A stretch of 64,000 nucleotides of DNA from Dichotomocladium elegans (Eukaryota; Mucoromycota; Mucoromycetes; Mucorales; Lichtheimiaceae): NCBI GenBank assembly GCA_025716815.1, contig JAIXMN010000005.1, forward strand, positions 1,488,001 through 1,552,000. Direction: 5' to 3'. Each line of letters starts with the position of its first letter. Position 1 is the stretch's first letter. A program made the position numbers and the translations under genes. Of the stretch, positions 7,732-60,659 are shown in pieces. A model generated the notes under the pieces. That model did not search any database, had not been told where the DNA came from, and was given only the letters and a program-made list of their open reading frames with translations.

Positions 7732-10106
7732 TACTTCGGTTGGACAGTTTACGACTACACAAGGCTGTTTCTACAGTTTTAGAATGATATCACGTTTTAT
7801 TGTATACCGGAATGAGATCTCCATTACATGTGTCAACGGTAATCGACTGTTTAGGCATTCGTGATGCAGCGGTGCAGTTGTGATCACGGATTTGTCTGGT
7901 TTGATTGCAATTATTGCATTTTGTAGCTGATGTCGTGGTGTGGATGTGCGATTCCTCCATAGGAGTAAAAAGAAAAGGAAAGAGGATAGCGAGCGTTTAT
8001 TGTTATTCACATCTGAATTTAGTTCAGCATGTGTTACACCCAGAACAATCGAATCCCATCCGTCTGGATAGCAAGTAAAAATAAACTATCAGAGCTCATT
8101 CGAGATCCGGGTGGGGGGGAGTTCATGGACAACGTTCTACTGACAAGAGAAATAAAAGAGTCGATTGTCGGAGAGGATATCTCTCTTCCAGAGAGAAAGG
8201 TAAGCAACGCGTGAGTAATGGTTCATTTGCCATGCGACAAATCATTGTGTCAACATAGGAGCACTGATTCTCGCTCTACACTCATAAATTGCGTGTGTGT
8301 ATGTGTATGTGTATGTACGACAACCCAGTGGGACCGAAATGTGTAACGCTAAAAATTATTGCGCCATATTAGGATGTTGCTGCAGGATGATCCGATGGCC
8401 CGTTCCCCTTGGCATACGTTTGCTACTCCGAATGTGTAGAGGGTTCCCCCCCTGTCGAGATCTAATTTTGCTACATCCAGTTCGTTACGTCCCAGGCAAA
8501 GGACATTGCTTGCTTAACCGCGACTCGAGGATTTTCACGATCAATGCATGCACGCATGACTTGATCTATTGCGACAATTCTAATTTCTTATAGCAATAGT
8601 CGGGAACGGACAATGCAGATCTCCAACCTGTGGACAGTAATGCTGGGGGTTCCCTACTCCTGGCCACGTAACCGTCTTCTGTAAAAAAAAAGTCTGATTC
8701 ATAACAGGACAGAATATGCTATTCCGGCAGACCTAGAGGAGGCCATCTATTTACTATGGCTTTTATGGGTTGTGCCTTGAGCGTAACGGGTGCATAACGA
8801 TTAAGACTTGTCTCTAAAAGGGTTTGACACGAAGCAGCAATGCTTAAGATGAAGTAATTTGTCGTAAACAAATAACTGTATTCAAAGACTGCGAATGCGG
8901 GGGTTCTGGAGAAGAATTGAAACAATGACTGAGTTACAACCCGCAGCGGAGATAGCAGACAGAAGGATCCATGGCCTAACGCCAGAACAAGCACCCATTC
9001 ATTGAACATGGATAGGTGGGGTCCAGTCAGGGCGCATCCTCGAAAGTAGTTATGTCAGCTCAGACATGATGAGAATAAAGGGGTTAAAAATCCAAAACAA
9101 GCAAATGCTCATACACAACATAAAATATGTATAGGTGGTAGCCTTTGATAGAAAGCCATTTGGGAAACAATAGCAATATAATGGAAGAAACTGTTGATGG
9201 TATCGTGGCAAGGATGTAGTCCAATCGTAGTGAAAGACGAAAATGTCTGCTAATTGGGTACCTACTAAAGTAAAAGACGAGATCCAGACTGAGTCACGAA
9301 TCATCGGAGCTAGCTGGTAGTACAATACGATCATGATCTGACTCCCGGAAGATGTCATGTCCGCCTTGTTATTCGCTGTAGAATACCTCATCATTCGCAC
9401 TAAGCCGTTCTCAAAATCAGATCTCCATATTTCGCCTGCCTCGGGGACGTGCTAAGATATATAATGACGAATATAGGTGTTTGTCTAGAATTGCCACACG
9501 TCTCATCAACATTGCTGCGGACTGAACGATTCATAAATAGTCCGCACGATAGTAGAACCCGGGCGTAGTTCGTGCTATGGGTTATTTGTCATGGATTACT
9601 CGGCTTGAGTAAAAAATGTCCTGAGAATGTATACTATAGTCACAAACTGGGGCATGTTGGTTGATCCGTTGATGAAAATGAACTTGGCAGTCAAAGGGAG
9701 ACGTTGACTGATGAAACCGGGCTGGATTTGCCCATTTCTGAGATACCAGTGAGCATACTTTAATTCAGATATTGTAGTCGAAGTCTTACGCTTTAATATA
9801 CATACGGTGAGATCGGATTGGTTAAGCATAGTAACGGTATAGGTGGATGTCTAGCAACTACTCAGGGCTTGATCGTTCTTGAGGAAAATTCATTGATTAA
9901 AGGAATATAAAGAGCGACCGACATCCGGCACATTCCCTGTATGAGAATATACAAAGGCGTGCTTAGTTATGCGAGTCCTCTGCTGTCCTTCAGCTCGACT
10001 GGTGCCGTAATAAGGCAGCACTAGCGGCGCAACAAAGAACGGAAGCAGTACGGCAACATTCGCCTTCGCTTGTTTTCATCAAGTCAAATCAACCACAGAT
10101 ACAATA
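7732..10106. other. Gene-poor region with possible decayed coding sequence
   Basis: AT-rich spacer. No complete gene found. On the minus strand between about 9829 and 8719 several frames are rich in hydrophobic residues and look exon-like: a stretch at 9596-9829, another at about 9100-9260 in a shifted frame (reading IPSTVSSIILLLFPKW), and one at 8719-9009. I could not join them with believable introns, so they may be a decayed multi-membrane-span gene or chance. A short TG repeat lies at about 8293-8318. Confidence 0.35.
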
Positions 10107-10271
10107 TACCTTATTTTCAAAAATAAATTTCGTAAGGGAGGAAAATTATGACGCATATAAAGTGTCGCATAAAAACATAAAATTTGTCGCACGGATAAAG
10201 AAAACCGTTAGTTAACAGGAAATATCAGCCCTTTCCTTACTCTTTAGCTTACCCCGAAGGTAGCTAGGTCT

Positions 10272-10291
10272 GTGCCGGTGGTAACCGGCAC
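10272..10291 (-). ncRNA. Conserved terminal hairpin of element A
   Basis: Perfect 7-bp stem (GTGCCGG/CCGGCAC) around a 6-nt loop, read outward on the minus strand as TTACCA. The same hairpin position in the Fanzor element has a different stem that still pairs and a related loop. It is followed outward by an imperfect stem capped by TTCG. Whether it works as RNA or DNA is inferred. Confidence 0.5.
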
Positions 10292-20439: not shown

Positions 20440-21136
20440 TAGGATCGCTTCATCCTTCTGCCCTCGTGTGGCTTGAACGGTATGTATAGCCCTATCATAT
20501 AGCCCTGTTCCATTCTGCAATCTTCCAATATTCCGAATCCTCTGTAGATACGGATATCAGCCTAATTCATGTGCCACGAGAGGGAGGACAATGGCTTTAG
20601 AGGGGAACGCAATTTGGCTGCATCCGAACAGGTCTTTCCACCATGGTCTCGTCGAGGTGCTGTTGTCTTCCGCTGCTTCTGCTATTGGTCCGTCGTCGTC
20701 GTCTCCTCTATCCTTCCTGCGACTCTTCCACCGTCGCATCCTCCATCGATGCGCAACAACTCTGGCATCCCTTCCTCTCTGTCCCGCCGTTGTTACCGCA
20801 ATGGCACATCCAGCCGCCTTCGGAATGAGTTAAAGAGTACGAAGGAGGGCTGATGTTTTCTGTTGACTAACGAGTATCTCTCTTACCTTCTTTATCCATA
20901 CGACAATTCTGTATTTTTATGACACCCATTACATTTTCTTGTGACATCTACTTTACTTTGAACGCGCCATAGTTTCACTCTCTTTAATCTCTCTATTCCC
21001 TCACAGGGTATCCGACATTTCAGCCGACAGATGCCAAATGTTTCTATCCATCGATACAACAACTTATTACAATTTGCGTAGAATTTTTCACCATTATTCT
21101 ACTTTGTCCACGAAGTTTATTTAAAAAAATAATGTA
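20440..21136. mobile_element. Element B: solo right end of the Fanzor-element family
   Basis: The right terminus (about 20850-21134, then TA) matches the family TIR, including CTGTTGACTAACG and CGACA/TGACA repeats. The adjoining 20470-20840 block matches the left end of element A in inverted orientation, including a short frame beginning M(A/V)SSRC with a shared IDAQQL/VDAQQL motif. No matching left TIR was found before 20.4 kb, so only one end survives. The left boundary is approximate. Confidence 0.6.
20786..20805 (+). ncRNA. Conserved terminal hairpin of element B
   Basis: Stem GCCGTTG/CAATGGC with loop TTACCG. Six Watson-Crick pairs and one G-U wobble if read as plus-strand RNA. Same position relative to the TIR as in A, D and the Fanzor element, with a different stem sequence. 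Confidence 0.5.
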
Positions 21137-43394: not shown

Positions 43395-43410
43395 CATGGT
43401 TATCGCCATG
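43395..43410 (+). ncRNA. Conserved terminal hairpin of element D
   Basis: Stem CATGG/CCATG with loop TTATCG, the same loop as in the Fanzor element. In copy C the matching site has lost the loop and keeps only a CATG/CATG pairing. Confidence 0.45.
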
Positions 43411-43567
43411 TGCACACCTGAATATGCCTGGTATGAGCCGGATCGGTAAGTCAAAGTGTAAAGGGCATGAGGTGATGTTTTCTGTTGACTAGCGAAATCT
43501 TTTTTACCTTGTGATACGACAATTTCGTATGATATTACGCAACATTCTTTTTGTATTTTAAACGAAT

Positions 43568-45665
43568 TTATTTGGAATACAAAGTAAAATCATCCTTGAA
43601 TCCATCGAATTTGCGCATCAGCCACCAAAACCGCGTGACTGTGCTTGACCATAATGCAGTGACCTGATGGGGCAGGACAGAGGCTCAGAAACTCCCGTCC
43701 ATTGTATGAGTCATTTCCACTATCAGTTGTACTTACATTGCCTTTGGAGTCGACATACCACGAAGAACAGTTTCCCTTCCAAACCGTCTTGTCCAAATCC
43801 TTCTGCAATTCCGCTGCATATGCGTCCTGTGCGTCTTGCGTCGGTTCGAAAGCAGCAATGTCTTCCTTGATCATTCTGCGGATCATTTGGCAGGCGAAAG
43901 CGACTTGGCTAACATGTTCATGAGCAAAGGGGGAAATTCGAATGCATTGAGTAACCCGTTTTGATGTGTACATCTCTCTCAATACGTTTACCATTCCATC
44001 ATGATTAAGACTGAGCTATGGCCCAGAAGACTGGACGGGCCGAGAATCATGAAAAGGTTGGGATAGCCATGGATGGCTAGTGTCTTGTAGGTAGCCGGGA
44101 ACTTGTCACGCCATGCTTCATTTAATGTCAGTCCCTCCCTGCCTTGCACTAAGGGAGAAAAATAGGTGACGCGAGTTGAAATGCTATGAACATCAGTCCT
44201 ATGGACATAAGACAACGTTACCTTCCAGAGAACCCAGGAAGCCCTGGACGTCGAATCCGGTTGCCAAGCAGAGAATATCGAACTCTTCCTTGTTACCATC
44301 TGCCGTTGTAATAGTCTTTCCCTTCACGGAAATGATGGGGTTGCGCTCGATAACGACATTCGGTTGACACAGAGACTCGAGATAATCATCTGTGACGACA
44401 ACACGCTTGCATCCGAGTGGATAGTCAGGGATCAGCGCACTGACGAGATCCGGTCGACCTTGGGCAATGATGCGCCTTCGCATCTCCCCCTCGATCTGTC
44501 GACAGATCAGCCTTGCGCCGATACCTTTGTAATATCCAAAGACCAAAAATGTAATTTCCATCTATCACAAAACCATTGAGGATCCTAAAATATACTCTTC
44601 CTTGCAACGTCCTATGCATATGCGTATATGTGTTTTGACGCTTGTCATTTCTTCTTACCTTCACATAAATATAAAAGCGATAGAATCGGGCAATCAGAGG
44701 CACCCAGCGAAAGAGAAATTTAACAAGGCGCGAATAGGAGTACTGTCCACGGAGCCTGCACCAGATCGGTGTGCGTATGTAGTTCACCAGCGATTTTGCC
44801 TCCTTGACCAGAGCCGGGATGGTTTGAACTGCACTTGCACCGCTACCGACCACAGCTACCTTTTTGCCAGTGAAGTCAACGGACGAATCCCAGCTGGCGG
44901 TGTGGACAATAGGTCCTGTGAATCCTTTGAATTGCTCTGGAACCTTTGGAACTCGGATGGATCCCACCGCCACAAAACTTGGAAACACATAAAGCATCAT
45001 ATCAATGTCATGTTCCATCGCCCTAGGCCCTTTCTTTTGCAATGCATGCACCCACGCAAAGCGGATAGTTGTAGACACCCTGACTCACACGATGCTATAT
45101 TTTTCGCTAGGGAGGGGCTTGTTTGTTCTAGCGTCCTGAAGGTCAAGAAGCCATTGTCGTTCGTTGTCGATCCATGTTGTCTTGATCACGCGGGTCTGGA
45201 GACGGGTCTGCTCATAAAGGTTGTGTTTCTTTGCAATATTCACTTGGTATTCATGGATTTCCTTTTGGGGGCTGTACAGCTCTGACCAGTCTAAGGAATA
45301 GAGACACGAGTAGGCAGCACAGGCATGAACATTAGTCTCCCTCAAGCTCTCTGGTTTCTCATCGTGTCTTTTTTTGCCTTGCCTGGATTGAGCTCATGGC
45401 TAAGCGAGTAAAGATGCGAAGGCACGTCGCATGCGCAGTTTGGGTATGTGTTGACATGCCACGTCCCGCCAATGTCATTTGATGCCTCGAAGATCTGCGC
45501 TCGGATACCGAGCTCCTGCTTTACTTTGATGGCTGTGTGGATGCCACTGAATCTAGAACCAAGGAATGAGAAGAAAAGAATATGAAATGGGGCTTGTCGT
45601 GTTCTTCTTCTTGATCGTGGATCCTACCCGCCACCAATGATCGCTATTGTGGGTTTATTATTCAT
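43568..45665 (-). CDS. Baeyer-Villiger-type flavin monooxygenase
   Basis: FAD- and NADPH-dependent oxygenase of the class B/FMO family; substrate unknown. Eight exons: 45628-45665, 45383-45552, 45089-45290, 44659-44977, 44222-44561, 43992-44148, 43737-43908, 43568-43663; phases agree and give 497 residues. Motifs: the FAD Rossmann GxGxxG (IIGGGFSG) split by intron 1, the Baeyer-Villiger fingerprint FxGxxxHxxxWD (FTGPIVHTASWD, about residue 160), the NADPH-binding GSGASA, the LATGFD motif, and the ILGPSSLLGHSS block. Intron 2 has a GC donor. The last exon reads to a stop inside element D: codons from the Thr onward (TLYSK, then stop) come from the transposon end. The C-terminal region may therefore be altered; the core domains are complete. 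Confidence 0.9.
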
Positions 45666-55117: not shown

Positions 55118-55582
55118 CATTTTTCGTACTCTCAAAAAACATGGCATTCGTTTTTGTTCTCTCGTTTCTGTAGTCTTTGTAGCATTGTCTGACCGACCCT
55201 CTTCTCCTGTTCTCGCTCTTTTTATCGCTATTTACTATGTATACTTCATTCCGTCCTCTCCTCTATCTCTCTCTCTCCTCTTGTTTAATAAATTACTTAG
55301 TTAGTTGCAATTCTCTTTGCCCGCAGCTCATTCCTTTCCTCAAATCATAAGAAGAAGGTGCGATTCCTTTTATGTTCGCAGACTCAACTTGTCCGTCTCC
55401 ATTCACGGACCTCTGCGTATCACTCTTGTACTAACGTCCATGTTGAATTATTGGAACGACAAACCTTTTAATACGCTTTTTTTCGTTTCTGATGCTCTCG
55501 ATATGGTTATCTGAACAGAAATACTCAAATATCCAAAAATCACCCACGTTGTCTCCCCCCCTTTTCTTACAGATACTGTATA
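55118..55582. other. 3' flank of G-beta gene
   Basis: Pyrimidine-rich and AT-rich sequence up to the TA that precedes the Fanzor element. No gene recognised. Confidence 0.5.
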
Positions 55583-55584
55583 TA

Positions 55585-55740
55585 CTTTATTTTCAAAAAT
55601 AAATGTCGTAAATAAGATAAAATAATGTCGTGCAAAATACAAAAAAAATGTCGCATTGAATTATATAAATTTGTCGTATCAATAGGCAAAAAGATTTCGC
55701 ATCCATGGATTAAAACCTGTTAGTCAACAGAAAAACACTA
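55585..55740 (+). repeat. Left terminal inverted repeat of the Fanzor element
   Basis: Matches 59210-59344 in inverted orientation, with four TGTCG-type motifs spaced along it and one 23-nt extra segment. Confidence 0.9.
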
Positions 55741-55782
55741 CTCCTCCATACGCTTTAAACTTACACTCAAGGGCCCCGAAGA

Positions 55783-55823
55783 ACCCAGGAGTTATCCTGG
55801 GTAGTCCCGGCGATAACCGGGAC
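55783..55823 (-). ncRNA. Double hairpin at left end of the Fanzor element
   Basis: Two adjacent perfect stems. The first is ACCCAGGA/TCCTGGGT with loop GTTA (55783-55802). The second is GTCCCGG/CCGGGAC (55804-55823), whose loop reads TTATCG on the minus strand. The right end has the same arrangement in inverted orientation with a different second stem. Function as RNA is inferred. Confidence 0.5.
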
Positions 55824-57039
55824 GGAGAGACAGGAGGAGAGAGCCAGCACACCAGAAGAGACAGGCGGCGGCTGCCAGGGCGCCAAACGAGGGAATGGCG
55901 GCGGCGGAGGGAAAGAGCGAAATGGGGCCTGCGGTGGCAGCGAAAAAGAGCGGAAGGAGCGGAAGGGTGTTCAGGAACTCCTCTCTTCCACGGCTCATCA
56001 AGCACGGGTACGATTGGTTAATCTATAAAGGACAGTGGATGTCAGTTGCAATAAAATAATTTGGTATTACAGCGATCATACCGGATAAGACCATGGAAGA
56101 GAGGGTCGGGATGAACTCGATGGAGAAAGGAGATTTCTCAGTTGTCCATTATTTGTAGGAAATCAAGGAGGAGCAGAAGAAATTTCTTTGTGATAAACGA
56201 TTTTCATAACTCGCTGATCCTTTAATCGGTACAGGAGCTTGGAAACGTCCTGTTATTGCATTCCGAGAGTACTTGCATAATTTCTTTGTGATGAACGATG
56301 CTGCAGTAAATACAACGGCGGGTCACATGCTCTTTTCATTGACGATTTCCATCATTTATTGATACTGTTTATTTTGGTTTTTTTAGCCCTAGGCGGTTCG
56401 CATAGCGTATTTCAGCAATCGATATACCGTCCGTGGTGCTGTTAGAAACGAAATTGTATTGGGCGTATTCAGAGGTCGGCTTGATAAGAATTGGATGTCC
56501 TTTTATGTTATAGTGACCGCCTGTTATAGTGATACCATCGGTTCCAGGGAATCGCATCACTATAATGAATTATCACTATAACGAATTGGAATAAGCCCTA
56601 CCTGGCAATTTTGTTCTTCATAAAGTGTATCACTATAACAAGCGGCCACTGTAAAACCTCATTAAAGAACTCAGTGGGAAAAAGAAAAAGACCGTGGAGA
56701 TGGATCATTGCTGACACTATAAACAGTGATGCTCAAGCAAACTGTCCCTTTCCATTATCCACATACAAAACTAGAGCCCATACAGCCTACAGAAAATAAC
56801 ACAGCACCACATTTACGGTTGAAGGTAATACGGCCGCTTTCATACTCGGCTCCGCGATACTAAGAAATAATATACCCTAGGTCTTCCCCCACCAAATAAC
56901 CCAACCCCACCGCCCCGTCATTCCCGAAGGCATGCGCACTGGCCACAACATTGACCACACTGGCCGTATAATTGGGGTGAAATCGTCCATACGGGGCATC
57001 GGCTGTCGCCAGCCGATGCCCCGTAAAGTCTGTATCAGT

Positions 57040-59086
57040 TTGTCGACCTTGTCCACAACACCACAACGCAGGCGTACGCGTTCGCCAAATATAGTTTCAT
57101 CAACGAGACAGTGTGCGATCCAAATTTTAACATCCAGGAAAACATCACGAAGAAGTTCTTTTCAGAAGTTCGGCTCTCCATGGTTAACAAAGCCGAACGC
57201 CGCAGCCAAGGTGAAACTGCCCACATCCGAGAACTAATTAATCGCCACAAGGATGAGTACCTTCGGATATCCGGATACGACAGGCCTGCGTTCCCTTATT
57301 CCCAGCAATGTTCTTCTTACGAAGGCACCAAGATTTATACTGCTTACGTGAATAATGCCCACATGCGGTTCGGGCAAACACCTTCGGCGTGTCATCAATG
57401 TCATCCTGAATCTTCGTCAGCGAAAAGCCGACCGCAAGCGGGAGTTAATCGCCTAGGGCATAAGCCCCGATCAAGTACGCCAGGACCTTTATGAAACCAT
57501 CGCCCGGCATGCCGCAGGATTCAAGCGAGCAATTGCCCGTCGAGGTGTTTTGAGGGAAGACATTAATGACGAGCCTGGATTTCTTCGGGAAGCATACGAT
57601 AACCTACAGCCTGTCTTAAACGCTTACCACCCGAAAGCACCAATTTCAACACCAGAGTATCTATTACGAAGCCAAGGCCAATCCTGTTAAGCATTTCATC
57701 GCCTTCTTCCAGCTTGCACGTGTTTGTCAACAGAACGGAATACGCGGATTCAACTGTTTTCCACTTCGTCGCTCGTGGTCACCATGCTACATGGAGATCG
57801 ATACGAAAATCCTTTGCTACCATATCCTGGGCTGCAAAATGGAATCCCACAAAAACAATATGGAGTACTGGAGACCGGCTGTAAACCTGAAATCAAGAGC
57901 TTTCAAACCCCAAGAATCCGAGCTGCTCCAATTCCGTGGGACTATTCACACCGACGGCGACGGCGTTACTGTGTTCAAGAAGACCAATGGCCTTCAATCG
58001 GGTTTCGGACATAGATTTGGCATCCAGAGCGAAGATATCGAGTACGTCAACCCACAGATAGTCCGGAATGAAGATTATAGAGGACAATGGGTCACCATTG
58101 ATCCTGGCAGAAGGGACCTGTTGTATTGCGTTCATGAGAACTCTTCACCCAACAACCACCAGACATTCCGATATACAAAGCAGCATCAAGATCATACACA
58201 GAAAACCAAACGGTACCACAGACTCCGAGAACGACTCAAGTTAGAGCGACTCGAGGTCGCGTTGGCTGAGCAGACTCTATCTCAATTTCAAAGTCATACG
58301 CTTTCCGTGCACAACTACGACGGATACCTCGGTGCCAAGAACCGGATCTCTGTAGTTCTCAAGTCTTTCTACGCGACAACCACTACGAACCACCCGCACC
58401 CGCAATTTCTTTTTCGAAAACTTCGCCTATCCGCATTTTACAAAAAGCAGCAATGAAAAGCTTCACGACTCTTTGAATGCGAAGTTTGGCAGTAGGTCCG
58501 TTTTCGTGATGGGAAATTGGTCTGCGCCGCATACCAGATATCAAGAGCCTATCCGTGGTCTCGGCTTCCGGCGGCTGTTGAAGAACAATTGCAATATTTA
58601 TTTGATCGACGAGTACAAGACAGGCAAGTGCTGCCCTGTATGTGACAATGAAAGCCTTGCTACCTTTAAAATGGTTCCTAATCCACGCCCATATCGACGA
58701 CCCGACGACCCGCTCACGATCTGCCACGGCCTGCTACGGTATGAAGGACGGGCATGGTATGTTATATTTCCAAAAGATTCTAATATTTTGATGTTTCAAT
58801 AGATGCACAAATCAAAACTGTACAGCAGGCAAGGCAGAGGATGTTCGTCAACCAAGGTTATGGAACCGGGATCTGGCGGCGACTCTCAACATGCATCATA
58901 TCCTCCGGGGTCTTTCGGGAAGATGGTATCATCCCAGCAAGGTTTCAGAGAAGAAATGCTGCACAAGCGTCCGCAGCTGGTGGAAGGCCACGCTCACCTG
59001 AACCAGAACAGCGTAGCGTGATACCACGACGGGTAAGGCCAGGAAGGTCACGACGTACACGCTCTGGCGGGTCGAGACGACCGTAA
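57040..59086 (+). pseudogene. Fanzor (eukaryotic TnpB-like RNA-guided nuclease), decayed
   Basis: Fanzors are RuvC nucleases guided by an RNA from their own element. Blocks in order: VHNTTTQAYAFAKY, ISGYDRPAFPYSQQCSSYEG, HIAFF-like FFQLARVCQQNGIRGF, FPLRRSWSPCYMEIDT, then RuvC-I WVTIDPGRRDLLYC (Asp kept), MGNWSAPHTRYQEPIRGLG, the LIDEYKTGKCCPVC zinc-finger start with its Glu, CHGLLR, CTNQNC, and RuvC-III LWNRDLAATLN (Asp kept). A GT-AG intron at 58739-58802 restores CHGLLRCTNQNC. Damage: frame changes near 57380, 57655, 58450 and 58910 and a TAG at 57462-57464. The shifted C-terminus keeps REDGIIPARFQRR and an Arg/Ser-rich tail. All three catalytic residues survive, so decay is recent. The start is not determined. 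Confidence 0.88.
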
Positions 59087-59106
59087 CCCCCGACCAAGAA
59101 TTTTCC

Positions 59107-59175
59107 GCGTCAGTTATCGCTGACGCACCCAGGATAACCACATCCCTTCGGGGCAAGCCCCCTTCCTTTGGAAGG
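59107..59175 (+). ncRNA. Candidate Fanzor guide-RNA scaffold (omega/fRNA-like)
   Basis: Just downstream of the Fanzor reading frame on its coding strand. Three hairpins in a row: GCGTCAG/CTGACGC with loop TTATCG (59107-59126), CCC/GGG capped by TTCG (59144-59153), and CCTTCC/GGAAGG with loop TTT (59161-59175). Known omega RNAs lie in this position. The distance from here to the element end is about 170-240 bp, which is longer than in well-known cases, so the role is a hypothesis. Confidence 0.5.
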
Positions 59176-59209
59176 ACGGTGTGTTGTAAGTTAACGGGAT
59201 TGGAGAAGG

Positions 59210-59344
59210 CGTAGTGTTTTCTGCTGACTAACAGGGTTTAATCCATGGATGCGAAATCTTTTTACCTATTGATACGACAAATTTATATAATTCTATGCGA
59301 CATTATTTTATCTTGTTTACGACATTTATTTTTGAAAATAAAGT
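59210..59344 (-). repeat. Right terminal inverted repeat of the Fanzor element
   Basis: Inverted match of 55585-55740, ending GAAAATAAAG next to the TA duplication. Confidence 0.9.
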
Positions 59345-59346
59345 AT

Positions 59347-60659
59347 GTCTCCTGTTATTTTATGCTGTCGAGTTCGACGACCCTACGACACTGATTGGTG
59401 TCCTATTTCTTGGTCTGCTAACGAATAGTCCCAGCTTGCGATATTCGTCCACGTACACACTATCCTGGTTGTTCTTCAACGATATACATGAAACTACACG
59501 ATTGGGCGCGTTAAGCCAAAATATGGATCTTCAAATTACTGTCACGTAGCAGTGCAATACCTTAGCACATGTGTCCATCCCATCCGCAATTTTCGCCTGC
59601 GACGTAACTATCAATCCAACGAAATATATCTTTTGATGTCAAAAGAGATTCGGGAGTCAGCTGTAGACTGGGGCTTCGTCTGTATTAAATGCGAGCGGCA
59701 TACGTACCTAACGGATGCAAATAAATGTAAAATGGATATGTGTAGATAGTGCGAGAAAGAGCTCTATCTTGAAAGGATATCAACGTTTTCCTTTCCTGCC
59801 CTTGTTTTCACTTCCTATGATGGCTAAGAACAACTGCCCTTTTTCATTTGATCCCGCAATATCGTATGTATAGAGGAACTAATATTTTAGAATTACTATC
59901 TTAAGCAGAATACATTGCTTATGAAGCATTGTCTTTGCTTAATATGGATGAGCCACCCATTACCTTTTCTTTTCTCGAGTCAGCTGCTGATGTGATACTA
60001 TGATAAGATCCGTGGACGCTAAGCTGTTCAATATTGACATCAAATGCGCTTTGTTACAAGGTTTCTTGGAGTGTAGGCACGCATTATGGCTATTTAAAAT
60101 CTTTCTGTTCGTAATAAGCATGTATCAACCGTGACGTTCTGGTGATGCAGGTACAATGGCGTCATGTGACATGCATGGGATGTATTCATCTGGAAAATCT
60201 TTTAGCATTGCCATTTAACGCGCTAGCAATGCAGCATTCTATGGCGAGTTTTTTCTTGAGCTTCTGAGAGCATTCATACGTTCGATTACTCTCAGTGTGC
60301 GGGACATAACGTACATTCCACTTTTTGAAGATCCCCGTCCATTCTTAATCTACTTTGCGTTCGCACACCCACTTTAGAACAAATGACGGTATATTTTCTT
60401 GAGTGTTGTATCTATCGTTATAGGTATGACCTGGCCATGATCACCATTCGAAAATGTTGCACCACTACCTCGATTTTATCACAAACTCGTCGAATCCTTT
60501 TTGACAATTGTGAACGATATATAGCAGGACGGTGCACTAGTAATAAAGCTCAAATGTCGTCTGGGGATACCGACCGTATATTTTTTCGAAGTTTAAAAAA
60601 CTCATCAGCAATAGCATGCACTGTATAGACTGAAATCGAGGCCCCTCCCTTTTATTTTA
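59347..60659. other. Gene-poor AT-rich region
   Basis: No recognised gene. Short frames only. The right part may include further decayed transposon sequence adjoining the relic at 60660-61230. Confidence 0.4.

Follow-up and report, generated by a model that had tools for sequence, protein, structure and literature searches.

A hairpin with the constant loop TTAYCR and a stem that changes from family to family recurs at transposon ends of Dichotomocladium elegans, five times in the window (the whole 64,000-nucleotide stretch of DNA analysed here), and selection maintains it as a folded RNA (or single-strand) element. Because its length, place and company match, its best reading is SL1 of a Fanzor1 omegaRNA, an identification that we regard as very probable on sequence comparison. 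Between the hairpin and the element end lie a splice donor, a branch-point-like block and an AG-free stretch, which go beyond what the earlier, sequence-only reading of this DNA had noted. We propose that the guide RNA beginning with this SL1 may be matured by splicing at the AG that terminates the element, and consider this somewhat better than an even chance.

The hairpin and its covariation

Five hairpins in which the loop stays TTAYCR and the differing stems still pair had been described from the letters alone, and all of them are present in the window with stems of 5-7 bp (Table 1). That such pairing is unlikely to be preserved by chance holds for the 7-bp hairpins, which are far above chance: stems of at least 7 bp are found at four of the 107 TTAYCR sites in the window and at none of the 1424 sites of 12 permuted loop words. 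It does not hold for the 5-bp hairpin of element D, the weakest of the five, which taken singly is not above chance. Stems of at least 5 bp occur at six of the 107 TTAYCR sites and at six of the 1424 permuted-word sites. A comparable stem is kept in most of the 20 relatives of D that were fetched. By type, SL1 has 7 bp in R and L (the right and left units of the Fanzor element in the window), F2, A and B; it has mostly 5 bp in D, with 7 bp in the copy D_L098. A sixth hairpin in the window (7832-7847, minus strand; loop TTACCG; 5 bp including one G-U pair) is at chance level, and no known element end lies there.

Retention across further copies, named in the sequence-only reading as a check, was found. 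Among 60 fetched ends (L009-L068), 55 carry a hairpin of at least 6 bp, against 0-2 for six permuted loop words. The 7 bp are kept in all 30 R copies (one with a G-U pair) and 6-7 bp in 25 of 30 L copies, both sets having been selected by similarity to the window ends and hence not being a random sample.

Covariation was scored with one row for each of the six types (R, L, F2, A, B, D). In this set 95.2% of the cells pair, and five of the seven stem pairs are changed on both sides with the loop constant. The covariation score of 0.829 compares with 0.271 +/- 0.092 after shuffling, none of 500 shuffles being as high; the families are related and hence are not independent witnesses. With the pairing partner slid the score is at most 0.181, and 13 cells are changed on both sides against 4.8 in the shuffles. 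Three of the five measures exceed all 500 shuffles; the count of two-sided pairs (five) was matched by 42 of the 500, and that of further pair types (eight) by 130. The earlier claim of a folded nucleic acid under selection is thus upheld, and the larger alignment that had been called for also covaries: across 62 rows 79.5% of the cells pair, and 66 are changed on both sides against 25.3 +/- 3.4 when shuffled. The A/B and D rows were aligned via flanking sequence and not via pairing, and the R, L and F2 rows were placed by hand; four gapped rows and A_L077, which lacks the TTAYCR loop, were left out.

Many of the changes within A/B and D copies affect one arm only and disrupt pairing, which dead copies would be expected to show, so the covariation signal comes mainly from differences between families. 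The stem arms of A/B have conservation values of 0.79 and 0.73, below the mean of 0.86, and the loop has 0.91; in D the stem part CCATGG has 0.89 and the mean is 0.82. Taken together, the pair-breaking changes within copies and these conservation values indicate that selection has acted mainly in the lineages that spread.

Table 1. Positions in the window of the hairpins, the Fanzor1 gene remnant and the associated sequence signals
Feature	Position	Strand	Description
SL1 hairpin, R unit	59107-59126	+	GCGTCAG-TTATCG-CTGACGC, 7 bp
SL1 hairpin, L unit	55804-55823	-	GTCCCGG-TTATCG-CCGGGAC, 7 bp
SL1, element A	10272-10291	-	7 bp
SL1, element B copy	20786-20805	+	7 bp including one G-U pair
SL1, element D copy	43395-43410	+	5 bp
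Fanzor1 gene remnant	57027-59083	+	Frames broken; last frame 58784-59083, stop TAA 59084-59086
SL2 region, R unit	59134-59185	+	ATAACCACA to predicted exon end TGTGTT; includes CCC-TTCG-GGG hairpin; folding mixed
Predicted 5' splice site, R unit	59186-59191	+	GTAAGT
Branch-point-like conserved block, R unit	59217-59232	+	TTTTCTGCTGACTAAC
AG-free terminal-repeat stretch, R unit	59235-59341	+	AG at 59233-59234 touches block
Terminal AG, predicted 3' splice site, R unit	59342-59343	+	
Target-site TA and flank, R unit	59344-59365	+	Predicted exon 2 with guide
SL2 region, L unit	55765-55795	-	ATAACTC...GAGT; can pair across predicted junction
Predicted 5' splice site, L unit	55759-55764	-	GTAAGT
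Branch-point-like block, L unit	55719-55735	-	TTTTTCTGTTGACTAAC
Terminal AG, L unit	55585-55586	-	TA at 55583-55584
Donor word, element A	10247-10252	-	GTAAGC
Block, element A	10207-10218	-	CTGTTAACTAAC
Terminus, element A	10109-10127	-	Ends AAGG, not AG
Block, element B copy	20856-20871	+	Splice donor mutated in window copy
Donor word, element D copy	43446-43451	+	GTAAGT
Block, element D copy	43478-43493	+	GACTAGC
Terminal AG, element D copy	43583-43584	+	

Fanzor genes, their transposons and known guide RNAs

The R hairpin had been placed just after a Fanzor frame on its coding strand, where an omegaRNA or fRNA is expected, and this is borne out: SL1 begins 20 nt past the stop. The gene itself is disrupted by frameshifts and stops, and a piece of it matches Parasitella parasitica Fanzor 1 (PpFz1; PDB 9cf0) at E 1e-21. 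The copy L011, with an open frame of 403 aa, matches PpFz1 at E 2.4e-82 and a Spizellomyces Fanzor at E 4e-40; about 94 residues of the PpFz1 chain are without a match in L011, and these we take to be its FRI insertion. Pfam PF07282 matched the Fanzor protein only at E 0.01, below the cut-off. Related Fanzor proteins also occur in Rhizopus, Mucor and Syncephalis. The 39.4-Mb genome holds at least 113 Fanzor matches (103 scored of 674 candidates), and a 639-aa open frame without a stop is present in 16 among the 113 matches listed. Inside the Fanzor element of the window, an inverted repeat with TTATAGTGACCGCCTGTTATAGTGATAC arms (56508-56654) resembles a small inserted element, and a perfect 16-bp inverted repeat, TACGGGGCATCGGCTG, to which a microRNA model gives a weak match, lies near the Fanzor start (56990-57025). 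An Rfam search of 55400-59600 returned only mir-5985-like matches (E 0.57 and 0.77), located at a palindromic sequence within the element.

The carriers are TA-target Tc1/mariner-type transposons, and TA stands outside both termini of the window element (55583-55584 and 59344-59345). An apparently complete element, L181 (G000:C57:1657700-1664800), has an outward-facing B-type SL1 unit at its left end, a Fanzor frame of 609 aa from which the unit, lying upstream, faces away at a distance of some 2 kb, and, encoded on the opposite strand at its right end, a 475-aa transposase (DDE_3, E 1.8e-30). R-type elements may move in trans through transposases such as this one. To sample the opposite ends, stretches at a distance of about 3.8 kb were fetched for ten hairpin ends, five R-family and five L-family. 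All ten stretches encode the N-terminal portion of a transposase, together with the DDE part in the five from the L family, and no hairpin of at least 5 bp was found in any of them; hairpins at element ends, as reported earlier, are present, but as a feature of one end. The R-type elements fetched (L129-L133, L140) have only the N-terminal part of the transposase, and the transposase fragment of L139, taken alone, matches DDE_3 only at E 0.15.

The Fanzor element in the window is a composite of an L-family left part and an R-family right part, and both its ends are therefore hairpin ends. The left and right hairpins ascribed to it do both exist, but the left one is a copy of another family whose unit stands upstream of the gene and faces away. 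Among 30 L-type loci, the window copy apart, a Fanzor-like stretch runs away from the hairpin in 10.

Further Fanzor families carry the same unit. Among 20 diverged Fanzor copies, 45-82% identical to L011 in protein sequence, 13 have an SL1-type hairpin in the 3' flank: nine F2, two perfect R and two damaged R hairpins (L152, L156). At the protein level these nine F2 copies share 45-60% identity with the R type, and the F2 stem is formed by GTGTCGG or GTGTTGG with CCGGCAC. SL1 lies closely 3' of the gene in both R and F2, loop and length being equal and the stem different; the F2 distance from stop to SL1 is 6, 6, 6, 12 and 24 nt in five of six copies, and the remaining copy is out of frame. 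The seven 3' flanks without SL1 are L154, L146, L148, L150, L151, L155 and L160. The terminus of L154 lies 52 nt into its piece, which contains no SL1; L146 has its unit upstream, and L148 and L151 have an L-type end upstream. The SL1 unit of the L and B families likewise lies upstream of Fanzor and faces away.

All three solved Fanzor1 omegaRNAs, those of PpFz1, SpuFz1 and GtFz1, have an SL1 of 7 bp and adjoin the Fanzor1 gene at a transposon end, as here; in PpFz1 and SpuFz1 SL2 likewise precedes the guide, and PpFz1 has the smallest scaffold, with an SL2 of 4 bp and guide nucleotides C50-C58 (PMC11423790, excerpts). The present units differ from these three in that an intron-like stretch of terminal repeat separates scaffold and guide, and in that they can stand upstream of Fanzor, facing away. 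In published systems, as far as the available portions of PMC10711439 and PMC11423790 describe them, Fanzor guide RNAs run straight through the transposon end, the scaffold ending at the element boundary and the flank becoming the guide. For the present units, a scaffold that ends at the boundary would require either removal of the repeat by splicing or an exceptionally long RNA. The reRNAs of SfAV and other viral Fanzor1 are similar in that target-site bases are predicted within the scaffold, and different in that the terminal repeat is part of it there (PMC10711439, excerpts) and would be removed in our proposal. Fanzor1 was described in Tc/mariner elements in 2013, with the same mariner transposase and TA target sites; the available part of that paper contains no guide-RNA unit, no splice signals and not the word intron (PMC3627910). 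IStrons also combine splicing with an IS-type DNA transposon, but there group I self-splicing removes the element (PMC4227781, excerpts), whereas here the signals are spliceosomal in wording and the product would be a guide RNA. Ghost elements of Spizellomyces have retained the omegaRNA and lost the protein (PMC10432273, excerpts). The A, B and D ends of the present set were fetched without their interiors, except for L181.

In TnpB and Fanzor2 the reRNA forms a pseudoknot in which the SL1 loop pairs with bases beside the guide, and this pseudoknot is reportedly lost in Fanzor1. Read by eye, the SL1 loop GTTATC of R and L is complementary over 6 bp to GATAAC 6-7 nt downstream, a possible pseudoknot; in the window R unit the loop of 59107-59126 is complementary to GGATAACC at 59132-59139. 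The complementarity at that place is 4 bp in F2 and D and absent in A/B, also by eye.

Splice-signal words and the missing AG

From the hairpin outward the families share one order: SL1, a short part of SL2, GTAAGTY, TTTTCTGNTGACTAA, the terminal repeat, a final AAAG and the target TA. Judged by their words, GTAAGTY, TTTTCTGNTGACTAA and the terminal AAAG would be a spliceosomal donor, branch-point block and acceptor. The donor word is found in 29 of 30 R copies (GTAAGT/C), 30 of 30 L, 6 of 9 F2, 26 of 40 A/B and 16 of 20 D; the three F2 copies that lack it also lack the block. The ACTAAC block is present in 27 of 30 R, 28 of 30 L, 22 of 40 A/B and 8 of 20 D copies, and is the best-conserved 8-mer of A/B (0.94 vs 0.86), tying with repeat words in D. 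In all six F2 copies that have the block it reads ACTAAA, not ACTAAC, which counts against splicing. SL1 starts 237 nt from the element boundary in the window R unit, 195-197 nt in four F2 copies and 102 nt in the F2 copy L143. The block lies about 60-140 nt from the terminal AG (109 nt in the window R unit), and the mean zone lengths are 119 nt for R, 130 for L, 102 for A, 88 for D, 62 for B and 108 for F2.

AATAAA occurs at 59337-59342 of the window and at the same place in other hairpin ends. It was present in every terminus found (R 27/27, L 23/23, F2 4/4, A/B 13/13, D 2/2), the search word itself nearly demanding it, and was absent from the transposase ends read. As a poly(A) signal it could fix the 3' end of the RNA within the flank, at a guide length from the element. 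The terminal repeat of R also has indel variants of about 23 nt (L009-L038; about 59298-59310 in the window), and the inserted piece is without AG.

Across five aligned family consensuses AG is absent past the first two columns, and the other 15 dinucleotides are all present. The consensuses have accumulated 69 parsimony substitutions in this stretch with no AG gained. Decaying A/B and D copies have gained 38 AG in 353 substitutions from consensus (25/218 and 13/135, respectively), and at this rate 7.4 AG would be expected in 69 substitutions, giving P(0) = 3.9e-4 on an assumed tree and with consensuses written by hand.

AG was counted between block and terminus in single units, namely the 68 of 136 that have both anchors. 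Among R units 28 have one AG and one has two; among L units 18 have one, four have two and one has none. The four F2 units have none, A has none in four and one in two, B none in three and one in one, and D none in one and one in one. The usual single AG of R and L units touches the block. An AG beyond the block-touching one, which speaks against splicing, is present in 4 of 23 L, 1 of 29 R, 2 of 6 A, 1 of 4 B and 1 of 2 D units. Composition predicts 2.6-5.0 AG per stretch. GA is common in the AG-free stretch, and AG is common just upstream of it, with a mean of 3.0-4.8 in the 20-31 nt from donor to block. In a further comparison with composition, which took in five of the nine F2 copies and excluded the block-touching AG, the A/B and D copies still fall short (40 vs 122 and 39 vs 81 AG), a deficit that inheritance from a parent lacking AG would produce. 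The stretch of the autonomous L181 is 140 nt long and holds one AG, at its second base, and the fraction of shuffles with one or none is 0.028. The transposase ends do not provide a clean control: L ends have 6, 7, 8, 8 and 3 AG against 6.5-8.2 expected (five copies), but R ends, which share repeat words, are also AG-poor, with 1, 2, 1, 3 and 2 per 120 nt against 6.1-7.3 expected.

Host introns were read by eye in chaperonin genes (n=20). Eight of the 20 start with GTAAG and a few with GC; most end in TAG or CAG, and AAG, at two of the 20 ends (L176, L178), is a rarer acceptor. The intron of L176 contains CAACTAAC, and ACTAAC occurs in one of the 20. These introns measure about 40-120 nt as a whole, and in the present units the segment between block and AG by itself takes up about 60-140 nt, so the distance from branch to acceptor is not that usual in the host. 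This long distance is the main argument against splicing. Long AG-free distances do occur in other eukaryotes.

Folding across the predicted junction gives weak support to splicing in these models. With the target TA included and the junction written as ^, the joined form can pair as AUAACUC/GAGU^UAU in L, AUAC/G^UAU in D, AUACC-UUCG-GG^UAU in F2, UACC-UUCG-GG^UA in A/B and AUAA.CACA/UGUG.UU^UAU in R. When the donor was slid, the true donor ranked 1 of 79 in L, 1 of 68 in D, 2 of 50 in A/B, 3 of 50 in F2 and 6 of 96 in R by closing-pair probability. In minimum energy the joined form is better in two of the five families (L, D) and worse in three (R, F2, A/B), in which the unjoined form is favoured, since the donor's GTA can take the place of TA. 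When the whole scaffold is folded, L and D show the junction stem if TAT follows the junction but lose it if TAC does; R lacks it in both cases. Folding energy was therefore rejected as proof of splicing, its results being mixed across families. Also rejected was a general rule of a Y after the target TA, which is seen in 27 of 27 R units but in only 7 of 23 L units (A in 14 of 23). A search of the genome with the F2 pattern, allowing up to two mismatches, found no genomic copy of a spliced F2 product; its sole match, ending GGGTAA, looks like the loss of one G and not like splicing.

Proposed maturation of the guide RNA and its alternatives

From the hairpin, its covariation, its position with respect to Fanzor and the transposase end, the splice-signal words and the absence of AG, we infer transcription, splicing, Fanzor binding and guide use along the following lines. 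A unit at one end of each element would be transcribed outward. On the transcript SL1 (7 bp, loop UUAYCR) would be followed by the first portion of SL2 and a spliceosomal donor GUAAGU, then by CUGNUGACUAA with the branch point, by the terminal inverted repeat and lastly by AG, the final dinucleotide of the element before the target-site TA. Splicing would then excise the terminal repeat as an intron and join the scaffold directly to TA and the flanking host sequence, which would be the guide; UA from the target site would close SL2 over the junction. The predicted product, a scaffold of about 40-90 nt followed by the guide, would have the layout of known Fanzor1 omegaRNAs, and every new insertion would automatically splice the Fanzor scaffold onto the adjoining host sequence. 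That the transposon uses the spliceosome in this way to make its guide RNA, with the terminal inverted repeat as the intron and the last dinucleotide of the element as the acceptor, we put marginally above an even chance. Confidence in splicing is reduced by the F2 block, which reads ACTAAA, and by the absence of a junction stem with TAC in full-length folds of L and D. Among the titles and abstract openings listed from open-licence literature, none concerns splicing of a Fanzor guide RNA; in the available text of PMC10711439 "splic" and "intron" occur 0 times, and in that of PMC11423790 splicing occurs once, about cyclophilins.

The same unit could yield an unspliced, long omegaRNA that runs from SL1 through the whole terminal repeat (mostly about 195-240 nt) into the flank, with the terminal palindrome TTTATTTT-TG-AAAATAAA as a stem beside the guide. 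Precedent exists in other Fanzor1 reRNAs, where terminal repeat and target site are predicted in the scaffold (PMC10711439, excerpts), and in the variable length of omegaRNAs, 75-150 nt (PMC11423790, excerpts); AATAAA in the last bases of most termini would suit an unspliced 3' end, and the energies of the unjoined SL2 are better in three of five families. An RNA of this kind would, however, be far longer than the solved Fanzor1 guide RNAs, in the F2 copy L143 SL1 is only 102 nt away from the terminus, and a similar palindrome at the transposase end may mark a transposition feature. GTAAGT, the GACTAA block and the missing AG would also be left unexplained. We consider the unspliced RNA unlikely, yet still deserving of serious weight.

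Three further explanations are much less probable. If the stretch were an ordinary last intron of the 3' UTR, with SL1 regulating or ending the Fanzor mRNA and the intron serving, for example, mRNA export or decay, R and F2 units would be well placed, just past the Fanzor stop on the same strand, but L and B units lie upstream of Fanzor and face away, and an acceptor exactly at the transposon boundary would be unexpected; we judge this very improbable. The hairpin might instead act as single-strand DNA in transposition, as at IS200/IS605 or Helitron ends, and element-end hairpins with compensatory changes are indeed known from Helitron2 (PMC3627910, excerpts). Here, though, it is confined to one end, lies 217 nt inside the R end of the window element and accompanies a transposase that is a DDE enzyme. 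DDE transposases bind double-stranded repeats, and the chance that the hairpin serves transposition in this way is slight. Comparably slight is the chance that the element is spliced out of host transcripts to spare the host, as for IStrons, with the terminal AG serving host genes. An acceptor at the exact boundary would permit this, but the donor lies inside the element past SL1, so that the host message would retain SL1 and Fanzor, and no group I intron was matched in Rfam at E 1 or better in 55400-59600.

If splicing of the guide RNA is true, the scaffold would be freed from sequence that the transposase needs, which would be a new solution to that conflict, and a transposon-encoded RNA-guided nuclease would depend on splicing, with guide production tied to the splicing machinery of the host. 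Should the element end be an intron, searches for guide-RNA genes only beside the element boundary would miss such families. Even without splicing, the hairpin provides a covariation-backed SL1 for Fanzor1 guide RNAs in several families of one genome, and demonstrates units that stand upstream of Fanzor and diverge from it.
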